Shown here: one piece after another, positions 47,853 through 62,165 of the stretch
Numbering within the stretch: position 1 is the first letter of the stretch
Layout: each line of letters opens with the position of its first letter
The notes under the pieces: generated by a model
Seen by the model: the letters and a program-made list of their open reading frames with translations, nothing else
Databases searched by the model: none
Told to the model about the DNA's origin: nothing
Assembly: GCF_041270065.1 (NCBI RefSeq)
Contig: NZ_CP065958.1
Span: forward strand, 372,001-436,000
Direction: 5' to 3'
Length of the DNA: 64,000 nucleotides
Origin: Streptomyces fradiae
Lineage (GTDB): Bacteria; Actinomycetota; Actinomycetes; Streptomycetales; Streptomycetaceae
Program-made: the position numbers and the translations under genes

Positions 47853-49103
47853 TCACGCTCGCGCACGGGCCGGGGTCTCCGCGGTCGTCGTTCCGTCCAC
47901 GGAGCGTGGTTCGGTTGCCGCGCCGGTGTCGACGATGTCGTCGACGTGGAAGAGGCGGGCGATGGGGACGTCGGTGCTGCTGTGGGCGATGATCGAGAAG
48001 GCGATGCAGACCGCGATCAGCGTGTACGCCTCCGGCCCCTGAGGAATGCCGGCCTGGAGGACCAGCAGGCCGTAGACGACCGAGGCGAAACCCTTCGGCC
48101 CGAACCAGGCCGCGACCAGCTTCTCCCTGCGGTCGATCCGCGTCCCCCACAGCGACAGCAGCAGCGACGCCGGCCGGATGAGCACGATCGCCAGGACCAC
48201 CGCGACATAGCCACCGATGGACAGGTCTCCGAACAGCTGCGGAGTGAGCAGCGCGCCGAAGACGAGCAGGGCGGCGAACTTGGCCAGTTCGGCCAGCGAC
48301 TCGCCCAGCGGCTCGAACGCCTTCTGGGACTCCGATGAGACGGCGGCGAGGACCGCGCCCGCGGAGAAGGCGGCCAGGTAGGGGTTGGCGTGGGTCAGGT
48401 GGCAGGCGCCGTACAGGATGATCCCGGTGGCCAGCGGCAGCAGCGGCTGGAGCTTCGGCTCGGCGCCGAGCAGCGGAAGCCGTACGAGCCCGTTGACGAG
48501 CAGCGGGAGCAGCACGCCGAAGGCCAGGCCGAGGCCCAGCTCAAGACCGATCTGCCCGAAGGACGCCTCCGCATGGCCCGCGGTCGGTCCCGCGGCGGCG
48601 ATGAGGATCAGCACCACCGGCAGAGCGAGGCCGTCGTTGATACCGCTCTCGACGTTCAGCAACTCGCGCAGCCGGGACGGCACCTCCTTGCGGCCCACGA
48701 TCGCCGACGCGAACACCGGGTCCGTCGGCGCCAGGACCGCGCCGACGAGGAAAGAGGTCGTCCAGTCCAGGCCGACCAGGTAGTGGGTGATCAGGGCCAT
48801 GCCCACGCACGCGAGCGGCATGCCCAGACCGAGCGCGCGCGCCGGGTTGCGCCAGTTGGCCCGCAGCTTGGCGAACGAGACATGCATGCCGTCGGTGAAC
48901 AGCACGGCGAACAGCGCGAGATCGGCGGTCACCGACACGATCTCGCTCTCCGGCGAGATGTGGATCAGGCCCAGGAAGCCGTCGCTCACCAGCGCCCCGC
49001 CAAGGAGGAAGAGCAGCGAGGTGGACAGGACGGTACGGGCGGCAAGCCCGGACAGCAGCACCGCGACAAGCAGTGCGGCCCCGAAGACAGCGACGAGCAG
49101 CAT
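47853..49103 (-). CDS. CPA1-type cation:proton antiporter
   Basis: 416 residues with about 12 membrane helices. Family landmarks: LFTDGMHVSFAKLRANWRNP, VLAPTDPVFASAIVGRKEVP and NVESGINDGLALPVVL (the ND ion-binding pair), typical of NhaP/CPA1 Na+(K+)/H+ exchangers. The C-terminal ~25 residues are cytoplasmic and Thr-rich. Start ATG 49103 with GGAG ten bases upstream; longer in-frame starts would only add the leader. Its transcript is predicted to start about 70 bases upstream and to carry the shared 19-nt leader element. Confidence 0.9.
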   Translation of the reverse strand: MLLVAVFGAALLVAVLLSGLAARTVLSTSLLFLLGGALVSDGFLGLIHISPESEIVSVTADLALFAVLFTDGMHVSFAKLRANWRNPARALGLGMPLACVGMALITHYLVGLDWTTSFLVGAVLAPTDPVFASAIVGRKEVPSRLRELLNVESGINDGLALPVVLILIAAAGPTAGHAEASFGQIGLELGLGLAFGVLLPLLVNGLVRLPLLGAEPKLQPLLPLATGIILYGACHLTHANPYLAAFSAGAVLAAVSSESQKAFEPLGESLAELAKFAALLVFGALLTPQLFGDLSIGGYVAVVLAIVLIRPASLLLSLWGTRIDRREKLVAAWFGPKGFASVVYGLLVLQAGIPQGPEAYTLIAVCIAFSIIAHSSTDVPIARLFHVDDIVDTGAATEPRSVDGTTTAETPARARA

Positions 49104-49146
49104 GACGGAAGTACTCCGATCGGTAGAAGAGACACGTATCCCTTGT

Positions 49147-49187
49147 TCGCCGACCAGACTTCCCGGCACTCCGCAACGGACCTTACA
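49147..49187 (-). promoter_or_regulatory. leader element A: -10 box and 19-nt conserved sequence, antiporter
   Basis: On the minus strand, -10-like TGTAAG (49187-49182), 12 bases, then GTGCCGGGAAGTCTGGTCGG continuing C-G-A (GCCGGGAAGTCTGGTCGGC is 49167-49149). The ends GCCG/CGGC can pair, leaving a conserved 11-base loop. It is about 45 bases from the antiporter start codon. The same 23 bases and the same -10 spacing occur in the CBS/permease leader. Confidence 0.75.
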
Positions 49188-49230
49188 CGTTCCTTACGCG
49201 GCATTGACAGGGCCTTGACGGGCACCCGGG

Positions 49231-49361: not shown

Positions 49362-50660
49362 TCAGGCCAGGGCGAAGTAGCGCAGCCACAGATAGAGCGC
49401 GGACACGGCGACCGTGACGGCGGTGACGACCAGTCCGTACTTGGTGAACTGCCAGAAGGAGATGGGCTGGCGGTTGCGTTCGGCGATGCCGAGGACGACG
49501 ACGTTGGCGGAGGCGCCGATGGCGGTGGCGTTGCCGCCGAGGTCGGCGCCGAGGGCCAGGGCCCACCACATCACGTGGTCGGGGTCCCCGCCCATGTCGG
49601 CGACGAGTTCGCTGGTGATCGGCGCCATCGTGGCGACGTAGGGGATGTTGTCGACGATCGCGGAGAGCACGGCCGAGCCGCCGAGCAGCAGCATGGATCC
49701 GCCGAGTTCGGCGCCTCCGATGGCGTCCGCCAGCCAACCGGCCAGCTCGCCGATGACGCCCGTCTCGATCAGTGCCCCCACCATGACGAACAGGCCTGCG
49801 AAGAAGGCCAGCGTGGGCCACTCGACCTCACCGAGCACCTCGCCCGTCTCGACCTTGGACACGGCCACCAGCAGGCCGGCGCCGAGGAGCGCGACCACGC
49901 TCGGCTCGTAGTGCAGGACGGGGTGCAGGACGAATCCGGCGACGACGAGGGCGAGGACGCCCAGGCCGAGGGCCAGCAGGCGGGGGTCGGTGATGGCCTC
50001 GCGCTCGCGCAGCTCCATGACCTCGGCGGCGCGCTTCTCGTCGTAGACGAAGTACTTCGCGAACATCACCCGGCACAGCAGGACGAGGACGCATATCAGG
50101 ACCACGCACAACGGCGCGAGGTGCACGAGGAAGTCGTTGAAGGTGAGGCCGGCCCGGCTGGCGATGATGATGTTGGGCGGGTCACCGACGAGCGTGGCGG
50201 TGCCGCCCACGTTGGACGCGAAGACCTCGGCGAGCAGGAACGGCATGGCCGGCAGTTTCAGCCGGTCGCACACCAGGAGCGTGACCGGGGCCACCAGCAG
50301 GACGGTCGTGACGTTGTCGAGCAGCGCGGACGCCACGGCGGTGATGACGACCAGCATGGTCATCACCCGAAAGGGCCGGGCCCTGGCCTTCTTCACCGAC
50401 CAGATGGCCAGGTACTCGAAGAGCCCGGTCCGCTTCAGCACACCGACGATCATCATCATGCCCATGAGGAGGAAGATGACGTTCCAGTCGATGCCGGTCT
50501 CCTCCGAGTGGAAGGCAGAGACGTCGTCGGTGGCGCCGATGGCCAGCATCAGCCCGGCGCCGCCCAGGGCCGCGGCCACCCGGTGGACCCATTCGGTGAC
50601 GATCAGGACGTACACGCCCGCGAAGACGGCGACCGCCGCCCAGCTCTGCCAGTCATTCAC
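49362..50660 (-). CDS. ArsB/NhaD-family (SLC13-like) ion permease
   Basis: 432 residues, about 10-12 membrane helices. ArsB/NhaD signature: MGMMMIVGVLKRTGLFEYLA, SALLDNVTTVLLVAPVTLLV, FASNVGGTATLVGDPPNIII, and a second pseudo-repeat SAIVDNIPYVATMAPI then DLGGNATAIGASANVVVLG. Members move arsenite, Na+/H+ or dicarboxylates; the NhaD-like Na+/H+ role is plausible here because a CPA1 antiporter lies next door, but is not proven. The GTG start overlaps the CBS gene stop (GTGA), so the two are co-translated. Confidence 0.88.
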   Translation of the reverse strand: MNDWQSWAAVAVFAGVYVLIVTEWVHRVAAALGGAGLMLAIGATDDVSAFHSEETGIDWNVIFLLMGMMMIVGVLKRTGLFEYLAIWSVKKARARPFRVMTMLVVITAVASALLDNVTTVLLVAPVTLLVCDRLKLPAMPFLLAEVFASNVGGTATLVGDPPNIIIASRAGLTFNDFLVHLAPLCVVLICVLVLLCRVMFAKYFVYDEKRAAEVMELREREAITDPRLLALGLGVLALVVAGFVLHPVLHYEPSVVALLGAGLLVAVSKVETGEVLGEVEWPTLAFFAGLFVMVGALIETGVIGELAGWLADAIGGAELGGSMLLLGGSAVLSAIVDNIPYVATMAPITSELVADMGGDPDHVMWWALALGADLGGNATAIGASANVVVLGIAERNRQPISFWQFTKYGLVVTAVTVAVSALYLWLRYFALA

Positions 50661-51124
50661 GCCTGACCGCCCGCCGCGAGCAGGTGCCGCATGAGCCCGG
50701 CCGCCGAGACGACCCCGAGCAGCCGGCTTGCGGGACCGTCCCGCTCGACCACCGCCACCAGGGGTACGTGGCTACGGGCCATGGCCGCCGCGATCTCCAG
50801 CGTGCCCGCGTCCGGGCCGACGTACGGCGGCTTGAAGGCACGGGCGGGCAGCCACTGGGACACCGTCTTGCCCGTCAGGTCCTCGACGAGCGCTTCGGCG
50901 TGCCGTTCGTCGATGACCGGGGCGAGGAGCGGGTCCTCCATCACGTACTCGGGGACGAGCTGGCGCACGACCTGGGAGCCGGGCACGACGGCGTACGGAA
51001 TCCCGTCGGCGTCAAGCACCAGAAGCGCGGGCAGATCGTGTTCGGCCAGCAGCCGGACCGCGTCCACGGCACGGTCGTCGGTCGTGATGTGGGGAAACGG
51101 CTCGGCGAGATCACGGGCGGACAT
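50657..51124 (-). CDS. CBS-pair protein coupled to the ArsB/NhaD-type permease
   Basis: 155 residues with two CBS motifs: CBS1 about 1-55 (MSARDLAEPFPHITTDDRAV, LPALLVLDADGIPYAVV) and CBS2 about 95-150 (KPPYVGPDAGTLEIAAAMAR, VPLVAVVERDG, LGVVSAAGLMRHLLA). CBS pairs bind AMP/ATP/SAM or cyclic nucleotides, so it probably gates the coupled permease. AGGAG precedes the ATG at 51124. The leader carries the shared 19-nt element. Confidence 0.9.
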   Translation of the reverse strand: MSARDLAEPFPHITTDDRAVDAVRLLAEHDLPALLVLDADGIPYAVVPGSQVVRQLVPEYVMEDPLLAPVIDERHAEALVEDLTGKTVSQWLPARAFKPPYVGPDAGTLEIAAAMARSHVPLVAVVERDGPASRLLGVVSAAGLMRHLLAAGGQA

Positions 51125-51172
51125 GGGGCGGCTCCTGACCGGGGTCGTCAAAAAACGGGAACGCAAAAGAAC

Positions 51173-51213
51173 TCGCCGACCAGACTTCCCGGCACACCGC
51201 CGGCAACTTTATA
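51173..51213 (-). promoter_or_regulatory. leader element B: -10 box and 19-nt conserved sequence, CBS/permease operon
   Basis: On the minus strand, -10-like TATAAA (51213-51208), 12 bases, then GTGCCGGGAAGTCTGGTCGG continuing C-G-A (51195-51173). The 19-nt core is identical to leaders A and C. CCGGC just upstream can pair with the GCCGG at the start of the element, an alternative to the GCCG/CGGC pairing within it. About 48 bases separate it from the CBS start codon. Confidence 0.75.
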
Positions 51214-60453: not shown

Positions 60454-61563
60454 GTGGATCCGGTTGTCATCCCGATTCTTGTGGCGGCGATTGTGGTGGT
60501 CTTCCTCGTGGTGGCCACGGTGCGTATCGTCCCGCAGGCGCGCCGCTACAACATCGAGCGCTTCGGCCGGTACCGGCGGACGCTGCAACCCGGCCTCAAC
60601 TTCGTCGTGCCGGTGGCGGACCGTGTCAACACCAAACTCGACGTACGCGAGCAGGTGTATTCGTCAGCGCCCAAACCGGTGATCACCGAGGACAACCTCG
60701 TGGTCAACATCGACACCGTGCTCTACTACCAGATCACCGACCCGCGGGCGGCGGCCTACGAGGTCGCCGACTACCTGCAGGCGATCGATCAGCTCACCGT
60801 GACCACGCTGCGGAACGTCATCGGCAGCATGGACCTGGAGGAGACGCTCACCTCACGCGAGGAGATCAACGCCCGCCTCCGCGCCGTACTCGACGACGCC
60901 ACGGGCAAGTGGGGCATCCGGGTCAACCGCGTGGAGATCAAGGAAATCGATCCGCCGAACACCATCAAAGAGGCGATGGAGAAGCAGATGCGGGCCGAGC
61001 GTGACAAGCGCGCGGCCATCCTGCACGCCGAAGGGGAGCGGCAGGCCAAGATCCTTACCGCGGAGGGCACGAAGCAGAAGGACCTCCTGGAAGCGCAGGG
61101 GACGCAGCAGGCCATGATCCTGCGAGCGGACGGCGAGGCGAAGGCGGTGGAGCGCGTCTTCCAGGCCGTTCATCGCAACAATGCCGACCCGAAGGTCCTG
61201 GCCTACAAATACCTCGAGACGCTCCCGCATCTGGCGAAGAGCGACAACAACACGTTCTGGGTGATCCCGGGCGAGCTGACCGAGGCGGTTCGCGCCGTCA
61301 CCCACGCGTTCGGCGACCGGTCGTCGATGGGGCTTCCCGAATCCGCCCAAGCGGAGGAAGCAACCACTACCGATACCGACAGCTCGCCGGACGAAGGCGG
61401 TGCACCGGAGCTCCAGGCAGGCGCGCCGCTTCCACTCGACGCCGCTGCGGCCGCCGATGAGGTCGCGAAGCAGGCCGCCGCCGTGGTGAGCGACGCCAAG
61501 GCCGAGGCCGAAGCCGCAAGGGCGGCCCAGGTACCCGGCCGGGGGCAGGCGTCCGGAGACTGA
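60454..61563 (+). CDS. stomatin-like SPFH/Band 7 protein
   Basis: 369 residues. N-terminal membrane helix (PVVIPILVAAIVVVFLVVATV), SPFH domain about 25-190 (RIVPQARRYNIERFGRYRRT, NFVVPVADRVNTKLDVREQV, VNIDTVLYYQITDPRAAAYE), helical tail (QKDLLEAQGTQQAMILRADG) and an acidic/Ala-rich disordered C-terminus. It is the paraslipin/QmcA/HflK-C-like type. GTG start with CGGAGGA; it follows NfeD by 29 bp, a classic nfeD-stomatin pair thought to stabilise membrane domains. Confidence 0.92.
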   Translation: MDPVVIPILVAAIVVVFLVVATVRIVPQARRYNIERFGRYRRTLQPGLNFVVPVADRVNTKLDVREQVYSSAPKPVITEDNLVVNIDTVLYYQITDPRAAAYEVADYLQAIDQLTVTTLRNVIGSMDLEETLTSREEINARLRAVLDDATGKWGIRVNRVEIKEIDPPNTIKEAMEKQMRAERDKRAAILHAEGERQAKILTAEGTKQKDLLEAQGTQQAMILRADGEAKAVERVFQAVHRNNADPKVLAYKYLETLPHLAKSDNNTFWVIPGELTEAVRAVTHAFGDRSSMGLPESAQAEEATTTDTDSSPDEGGAPELQAGAPLPLDAAAAADEVAKQAAAVVSDAKAEAEAARAAQVPGRGQASGD

Positions 61564-61722: not shown

Positions 61723-61776
61723 TATACCTGCCGGCGCGCACCCTCCGTTTCAGGTGCGCCGGGAAGTCTGGTCGGC
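61723..61776 (+). promoter_or_regulatory. leader element C: 19-nt conserved sequence, STAS gene
   Basis: GCCGGGAAGTCTGGTCGGC at 61758-61776, identical in all 19 bases to leaders A and B, 29 bases before the STAS start codon. A hairpin GCGCACC (61736-61742) / GGTGCGC (61753-61759) overlaps its first two bases, so it competes with the GCCG/CGGC pairing inside the element. A weak -10-like TATACC is at 61723-61728. Unlike A and B, the -10 is about 30 bases upstream. Confidence 0.7.
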
Positions 61777-61805: not shown

Positions 61806-62165
61806 ATGCCGACGATGTCACCCTCACGGAAGCTCCGGCAGGGCCGCCACGCCTTGCTGCGAATGCTCCACCCTCGTCGCGATCTCGTCGTCATCCGCCT
61901 GAGGGGCAACCTCGACGCCGAGCGGGTGAAGGAAACCACCCGGGTCCTGCGCCGTGTGCTCCGCAACGGTCCGAGAGCACTGGAAGTGGACCTCTCCGGC
62001 GTCACACACCTCAGCCCTGAGGGAGCCCTCCCACTGTTCCTCGCCGCCCGTGGGGCTCGCGGCCAAGGAGTCCGGTTCACCATCACCCACGCGGATCCAC
62101 AGGCACAGGCCATGATGCATCGACTCGGCCTTGAGCGATATCTGTCGAACGGCGCCTCAAGCTAG
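61806..62165 (+). CDS. STAS domain anti-sigma factor antagonist
   Basis: 119 residues. STAS fold: RRDLVVIRLRGNLDAERVKE, then ALEVDLSGVTHLSPEGALPL with the phospho-acceptor position at the Ser of HLSPEG, and GQGVRFTITHADPQAQAMM. Such proteins release an anti-sigma factor when dephosphorylated. No anti-sigma kinase or sigma gene is adjacent; the nearest SpoIIE phosphatase in the window is at 9-11 kb. ATG at 61806 (or 61815) after CGGAG. It is preceded by leader element C. Confidence 0.88.
   Translation: MPTMSPSRKLRQGRHALLRMLHPRRDLVVIRLRGNLDAERVKETTRVLRRVLRNGPRALEVDLSGVTHLSPEGALPLFLAARGARGQGVRFTITHADPQAQAMMHRLGLERYLSNGASS

Follow-up and report, generated by a model that had tools for sequence, protein, structure and literature searches.

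Within 64 kb of the Streptomyces fradiae chromosome, one and the same 19-nt sequence stands ahead of three genes. An earlier note on this DNA (the window, that is, the whole 64-kb stretch that was analysed) had drawn attention to the sequence. We asked what kind of element it is, whether it acts as RNA or as DNA, and which genes it serves.

The element in the window and in the own genome

Our search of the window confirmed all three exact copies of the 19-mer GCCGGGAAGTCTGGTCGGC that the earlier note had placed in gene leaders, at 49149-49167 (minus strand), 51175-51193 (minus strand) and 61758-61776 (plus strand). The number expected by chance was 0.14, and none of 100 shuffles reached three copies. 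Beyond the exact copies, the window held no further match to the 19-mer at up to 3 mismatches. Every copy lies upstream of a gene and on the same strand, that is, in the leader position. The 19-mer is directly preceded by GG-N-G-N in all three copies, and the unit is longer than 19 nt. The copies are called A, B and C in the following, and their features are listed in Table 1. The closing pair of element A is U(49168).G(49148), and that of element C is C(61757).A(61777). The 23 bases common to A and B and the -10-like boxes ahead of both, which had been pointed out before, can be read directly from the sequence. The ion-exchanger targets are also borne out. Pfam identified the CPA1 and the CitMHS/ArsB proteins; elsewhere, NhaA forms the majority.

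Table 1. Positions of the features of the three element-bearing leaders in the window
Feature	Positions	Strand	Basis and remarks
Element A: GGAGTG + CCGGGAAGTCTGGTCGG + C	49149..49172	-	model R1, 45.5 bits
-10-like box TAAGGT	49180..49185	-	sequence match; ends 7 nt before GG of element A
CPA1 Na+/H+ exchanger gene, downstream of element A	47853..49103	-	PF00999, E 1.8e-45
CCGATCGGAG, predicted partner of element A's UCUGGUCGG	49114..49123	-	minimum-energy fold, z -1.91; runs into Shine-Dalgarno site
Element B: GGTGTG + core + C	51175..51198	-	model R1, 47.8 bits; closing pair U.G
-10-like box TAAAGT	51206..51211	-	sequence match; ends 7 nt before GG of element B
CBS-domain protein gene, downstream of element B	50657..51124	-	PF00571
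CitMHS/ArsB/NhaB-like permease gene, operon of CBS gene	49362..50660	-	PF03600, PF02040, PF06450
CGACC, complement of element B's GGUCG	51143..51147	-	sequence; just upstream of AGGAG Shine-Dalgarno site
Element C: GGTGCG + core + C	61753..61776	+	model R1, 47.2 bits
Weak -10-like box TATACC	61723..61728	+	sequence match; ends 24 nt before GG of element C
STAS (anti-sigma antagonist-like) gene, downstream of element C	61806..62165	+	PF13466, PF01740

Two observations concern the surroundings of these leaders. At 49180-49219 (minus strand) there are four 7-base repeats (GTCAAGG, GTCAATG, GTAAGGA and GTAAGGT) with an exact spacing of 11 bases, and the series runs into the -10-like box ahead of the CPA1 gene; these repeats resemble an OmpR/PhoB-family site, which would be a second layer of control. 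A gene for an SPFH/Band 7 protein (PF01145) lies at 60454-61563 (plus strand), directly upstream of leader C.

In the own genome (7.88 Mb), the 19-mer occurs exactly five times; that is, the three copies reported earlier are those of the window, and they are not the whole set. When a whole-genome search at up to 3 mismatches was made, as the earlier note had proposed, we obtained 11 matches, compared with 10 for a reversed control. Near matches alone are therefore not above chance; the full-motif copies, by contrast, are concentrated in leaders. Model R1, which was built from 109 sequences, found seven copies in the own genome, namely the five exact ones, one at C1:285666 (1 mismatch) and one at C1:436887 (2 mismatches). 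Five of the seven fall within about 19 kb at the right end of the window, and one copy belongs to the core nhaA gene (C1:3612958). Both imperfect copies front truncated frames, one NhaA-like (L031, C1:436500-443500) and the other CPA1-like (L033, C1:283000-287500). We therefore think that degenerate versions of these genes are present on the chromosome arm. A trans-acting small RNA with full complementarity to the element was rejected, since all five exact copies in the own genome, searched on both strands, are leaders.

Reach of the element and the genes behind it

When up to 2 mismatches were allowed, all of the 61 genomes of the genus contained the 17-nt core, and most of them also matched the reversed control. 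The exact core was found in 246 of the 394 genomes of the class and in 82 of the 137 genera; no genome contained the reversed pattern. Scanning named genome contigs for the core gave at least 119 stretches. Among the matches listed, 190 of 205 exact core matches were preceded by G-N-G-N-G, and after duplicates were removed, all of the 189 copies read GG-N-G-N-G before the core. The full unit is therefore GGNGN-GCCGGGAAGNCUGGUCGGC-R. The 15 core matches without the preceding motif (12 in viral contigs, one in Rhizobium and two actinobacterial) were regarded as chance matches.

At E <=0.01, model R1 detected the element in 81 of the 296 phylum genomes. Outside the own class it was present in 56 of about 270 genomes, a figure for which 25 of the 81 matching genomes were counted as the own class and the 195 unlisted genomes were taken as other classes. 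Two full-motif stretches among the matches listed are labelled Chloroflexota, and in one of these MAGs (Ktedonobacteraceae) a further copy precedes a Na+/H+ exchanger; these stretches are MAG-derived and may reflect contamination.

Within the unit, GGNG and the loop triplets GGA/GGU lack symmetry but are invariant or nearly so, and position 9 tolerates any base. The variable positions (-4, -2, 9 and +2) show no three-base period, and position -4 is T in 0.76 of the copies, meaning that the GTG of GGTG is not kept. These two features disfavour the idea that the element is kept as a short coding sequence of a leader peptide starting at this GTG. We consider this idea very improbable, even though the GTG at 49169 in leader A is in frame with the antiporter.

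A dispersed repeat, or matching by chance, would be in keeping with the near-match count of the own genome. This explanation is refuted by the reversed control, which gave 0, by the flanks, which are not shared among exact and full-motif copies, and by the association of the copies with leaders of one functional class; moreover, all 12 core matches in viral contigs lack GGNGNG. We give it practically no credence. The earlier note had allowed that the 19-mer might prove to be scattered regardless of genes; we found the opposite, the full-motif copies being concentrated in cation-homeostasis leaders across the phylum. The sequence is a real, phylum-wide regulatory element.

Clustering of the downstream ORFs (n=186, >=60 aa) gave 121 NhaA, 15 CPA1-type, 9 CBS and 6 ABC proteins, then smaller groups of 4 APC-like proteins, 3 PPDK-like proteins, 3 alpha/beta hydrolases and 2 STAS proteins, and finally 23 singletons, some of which were probably mis-called. 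The Pfam run, which was confined to cluster representatives, detected PF06965, PF00999, PF00571, PF03600, PF16980, TrkH, TrkA_N and Na_Ca_ex, and in addition SpoIIE, PP2C, DUF2254 and others; one APC-like representative had no Pfam match. The phylum loci add a Mrp-type antiporter subunit, a H+-PPase, a cation ATPase and further exchangers. That is, the element occupies the leaders of alkali-cation transport genes, as would be expected of an alkali-ion riboswitch (NhaA in 121 of 186, others being CPA1, CitMHS, Trk and Na_Ca_ex). These proportions are descriptive, because the sampling favours exact copies and Streptomyces. Seen from the side of the gene, the element was upstream in only 16 of 30 NhaA loci.

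Some element-bearing genes have names that do not point to an ion function (PPDK-like, alpha/beta hydrolase, DrrA-like ABC, glycosyltransferase, acyltransferase and LCM). The loci with PPDK-like enzymes, alpha/beta hydrolases and DrrA-like ABC ATPases are L102, L128, L139, L113, L122, L156, L059, L060, L086, L115 and L182, and genes of these three kinds may be unrecognised members of the regulon. STAS genes are preceded by the element in three copies (window copy C, L002 and L025). At the divergent gene pairs of L139, L084 and L224, each gene has one copy in its own orientation; such pairs join, for example, NhaA with an alpha/beta hydrolase and an ABC protein with a PPDK-like enzyme.

Promoter distance and pairing of the element

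Promoter boxes were taken as sequence matches to TANNNT, and Streptomyces-type nhaA genes were grouped by N-terminal protein words. In 103 of the 137 leaders other than Streptomyces-type nhaA, TANNNT ends 6-9 nt (mode 7) before the GG, and the element would therefore sit at +1 or +2 of the mRNA. Elements A and B fit the 7-nt spacing, and C has its weak box 24 nt up. For Streptomyces-type nhaA, only 8 of 52 leaders have the box 6-9 nt before the GG, and the boxes cluster 20-39 nt up. Thus, the earlier claim that the element lies at the very 5' end of the mRNA holds, at or next to the presumed end, for most leaders outside Streptomyces-type nhaA. Many Streptomyces nhaA leaders (L005, L009, L011, L014 and L023) also contain TTAGGTAAACTAA-like stretches 35-60 nt before the element, which we take to be either iron-box-like or a -10 region.

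A -10 box at a fixed spacing would also suit a DNA operator. According to this explanation, a transcription factor would bind the imperfect dyad GCCGnnnAGnCTnnnCGGC, which follows shortly after the -10 box, and would block or time initiation in response to Na+ or pH. The dyad symmetry around a free central base at position 9 is consistent with such binding. However, the promoter distance varies in Streptomyces-type nhaA, each of two divergent genes has its own copy, and GGNG and the loop triplets are asymmetric in spite of being nearly invariant. A homodimeric repressor would be expected to use half-sites that are symmetric including their flanks. We found that GCCG/CGGC and AG/CT are symmetric, whereas GGA/GGT and GGNG are not.

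The bases around the core bear on the same question. Positions -2 and +2 gave the strongest corrected association outside the -10 columns among the 189 copies, with U.G in 79, C.A in 51, U-A in 18, C-G in 1 and other combinations in 40 (Fisher's test on the four -2/+2 cells, 2.8e-23). The 77 copies of the phylum search gave U.G in 30, C.A in 22, U-A in 1, C-G in 2 and others in 22. U.G and C.A are isosteric wobble pairs. This preference speaks against a DNA dyad, because a dyad would favour symmetric, Watson-Crick combinations, and the closing positions avoid symmetric bases.

Inside the closing pair, the pairing of the ends GCCG and CGGC, proposed in the earlier note, is backed by compensatory changes. 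The double change C1U/G17A was found in seven genomes, namely five of the class, from five families, and two outside it (L266 and L300). Among the 394 class genomes, single mutants at this pair numbered 0 for U1/G17 and 1 for C1/A17; that is, five doubles stand against one single, which is the kind of compensatory structure that an alkali-ion riboswitch should show. A double change C2U/G16A was found in L198, and L307 (C1G/G17C) was excluded from the main count because no recognisable gene follows. The half-sites of a DNA operator would also yield symmetric double changes. Counts of standard pairs over the whole five-pair helix do not beat shuffles, since the closing pair is not a standard one and there is little variation in the inner pairs.

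Three other structures were considered. A two-tier G-quadruplex of four GG tracts was rejected, because the gene context is unchanged in copies whose positions 16-17 read GA instead of GG. An alternative hairpin CCGG/CUGG is not favoured, since changes at C1 accompany changes at G17 and not at G13. Pairing of N-4 with N9 showed no visible correlation.

The element also has a complement farther down the leader. GACC was found 10-24 nt before the start in 62 of 150 element leaders, compared with 15 of 237 control leaders from the same loci (p 7e-17). Downstream of the element, CGACC was present in 21 of 49 Streptomyces-type leaders (7.5 expected), in 40 of 101 leaders of the other class set (16.9 expected) and in 23 of 72 phylum leaders (10.0 expected). 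Similarly, CCGAC was present in 22 of the 49 Streptomyces-type leaders (7.0 expected) and GACCA in 17 of the 72 phylum leaders (5.0 expected). The clearly enriched five-letter complements are those of the 3' half of the element; CCCGG, a complement of the 5' half, is mildly enriched (16 of 49 Streptomyces-type leaders, compared with 9.0 expected). The earlier note had looked for the alternative partner in an upstream half. The enriched complement lies instead downstream, beside the ribosome-binding site, and it fits GGUC. A DNA operator would leave GACC beside the Shine-Dalgarno site without a role. This explanation, which had been held equally possible, is thus weakened by the asymmetry, the closing pair, the promoter distance and GACC, and we now think it unlikely.

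Among six folded leaders, only A (z -1.91) and the own nhaA leader (z -1.33) were more than 1 sd more stable than the shuffle mean, and both are predicted to fold with an anti-element helix running into the Shine-Dalgarno site. Leaders B, C, L002 and L025 had no such advantage over their shuffles (z 0.24, 0.46, 0.05 and -0.05, respectively). The CGACC of leader B takes no part in the minimum-energy fold of that leader, and GACC is absent from the leader of the window STAS gene. In partition functions of 124 leaders, the sensor stem had a probability of 0.001 on average, and the value for downstream pairing of the 3' arm was 0.81. Forcing the sensor stem in these 124 leaders did not open the Shine-Dalgarno site and left it slightly less accessible (0.40 to 0.35, and 0.34 to 0.33 in the shuffled-spacer control). 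A duplex test of the element against the whole leader was weak (mean z -0.48), and when seven stem-variant cases were checked for covariation of the anti-element, some had GACC or GATC and others had neither. The competing helix is supported by sequence statistics, and it may act on translation.

The predictions for free RNA, in which the stem is not formed unaided, look as if a partner were needed. This would suit a phylum-wide protein that, once bound to the 5' hairpin, regulates how the mRNA is translated or how stable it is, with no small ligand; the hairpin has a nearly invariant loop, and the signal could be any ionic stress. The anti-element points to a switch intrinsic to the RNA, yet it is compatible with a protein. 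We regard a protein site of this kind as distinctly unlikely.

Proposed switch and comparison with known systems

The element is most likely a cis-acting leader RNA of a cation regulon. We consider it probable that this RNA is compact, lies at the start of the mRNA or close to it, and regulates Na+/cation-homeostasis genes of Actinomycetota in cis as a translational switch. Its conservation, its gene association, the compensation in its stem, the correlated closing pair and the enriched anti-element are established as statistical properties of the sequences. The sensor would consist of GGNG, a 4-bp stem (G-1 C1 C2 G3 with C15 G16 G17 C+1), a wobble-like pair that closes this stem (-2 with +2), and the nearly invariant loop GGAAGNCUGGU. 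The 3' half, GGUC (positions 12-15, often extended), could, alternatively, form a helix with a (C)GACC strand next to the Shine-Dalgarno site. Since both pairings share this 3' half, the sensor fold and the leader fold would exclude each other, and the leader would work as a translational switch. Both folds would form and interconvert, and the sensor fold is presumably the ON state.

Na+ appears to be the likeliest signal. The next candidates are alkaline pH, Li+ and a protein that binds the RNA and conveys one of these signals. The NhaA protein SCO3564 of S. coelicolor is described as acting in alkaline stress (PMC12892944), and pH therefore stays a rival signal. We suggest tentatively, and with some doubt, that the element represents a new class of alkali-ion riboswitch and the main RNA sensor of Na+ in Actinomycetota. 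Its aptamer of about 24 nt would start no more than 1-2 bases from the mRNA 5' end in most lineages, would coordinate NhaA, CPA1, Mrp, NhaD-like, Trk and Na+/Ca2+ exchangers with STAS/SpoIIE/PP2C stress-switch genes, and would reach into Chloroflexota.

A 24-nt mark of the cation regulon across the phylum makes Na+ sensing in actinobacteria directly testable, and the reading as an RNA switch would add an unusually short sensor RNA. The element also suggests roles in ion homeostasis for those DUF2254, DUF6653 and APC-like permease genes that it precedes.

As the earlier note had suspected, the element matches no known Rfam family. No family reached the gathering score in the window, and none was found in seven loci at E <=5, where chance-level matches lay elsewhere only, or in 20 loci at E <=2. 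In the open-licence PMC literature searched, that is, in the best-ranked part of longer listings, the element is undescribed; it may have appeared in print elsewhere. The ydaO c-di-AMP riboswitch of rpfA is likewise a Streptomyces leader RNA tied to ion and osmotic signalling, as described in PMC10117811, but it belongs to a different gene, and the element loci scanned gave no Rfam match.

The dauA motif (SRC-36-1) resembles the element in being a leader of Streptomyces STAS genes with the Shine-Dalgarno site in its structure. According to the description in PMC11109978, it has 57 Streptomyces copies before STAS genes and a three-stem junction, with sulfate offered as a guess. It differs in that nhaA goes unmentioned in that description. 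Compared by this description, the dauA motif may coincide with element C, L002 and L025.

The alkali-ion riboswitches are leader RNAs too. Li+-I (nhaA-I, RF03057) and Li+-II (nhaA-II) occur mainly at nhaA and switch cation antiporters, according to PMC9646797, the main text of which contains neither Streptomyces nor actinobacteria. In contrast to our element, the Li+-I model has 55 positions, and the own genome gave 0 matches above its gathering score of 37 bits, whereas the control Caulobacter was matched. Li+-II and Na+-I (DUF1646) differ from the element in having no Rfam match in the window or the 27 loci. The paper on Na+-I, PMC9337991, the main text of which names neither Streptomyces nor actinobacteria, counts a single Na+-sensing bacterial protein before this riboswitch. 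As described there, Na+-I resembles the element in its Na+-related gene set, which spans several unrelated transporter families.
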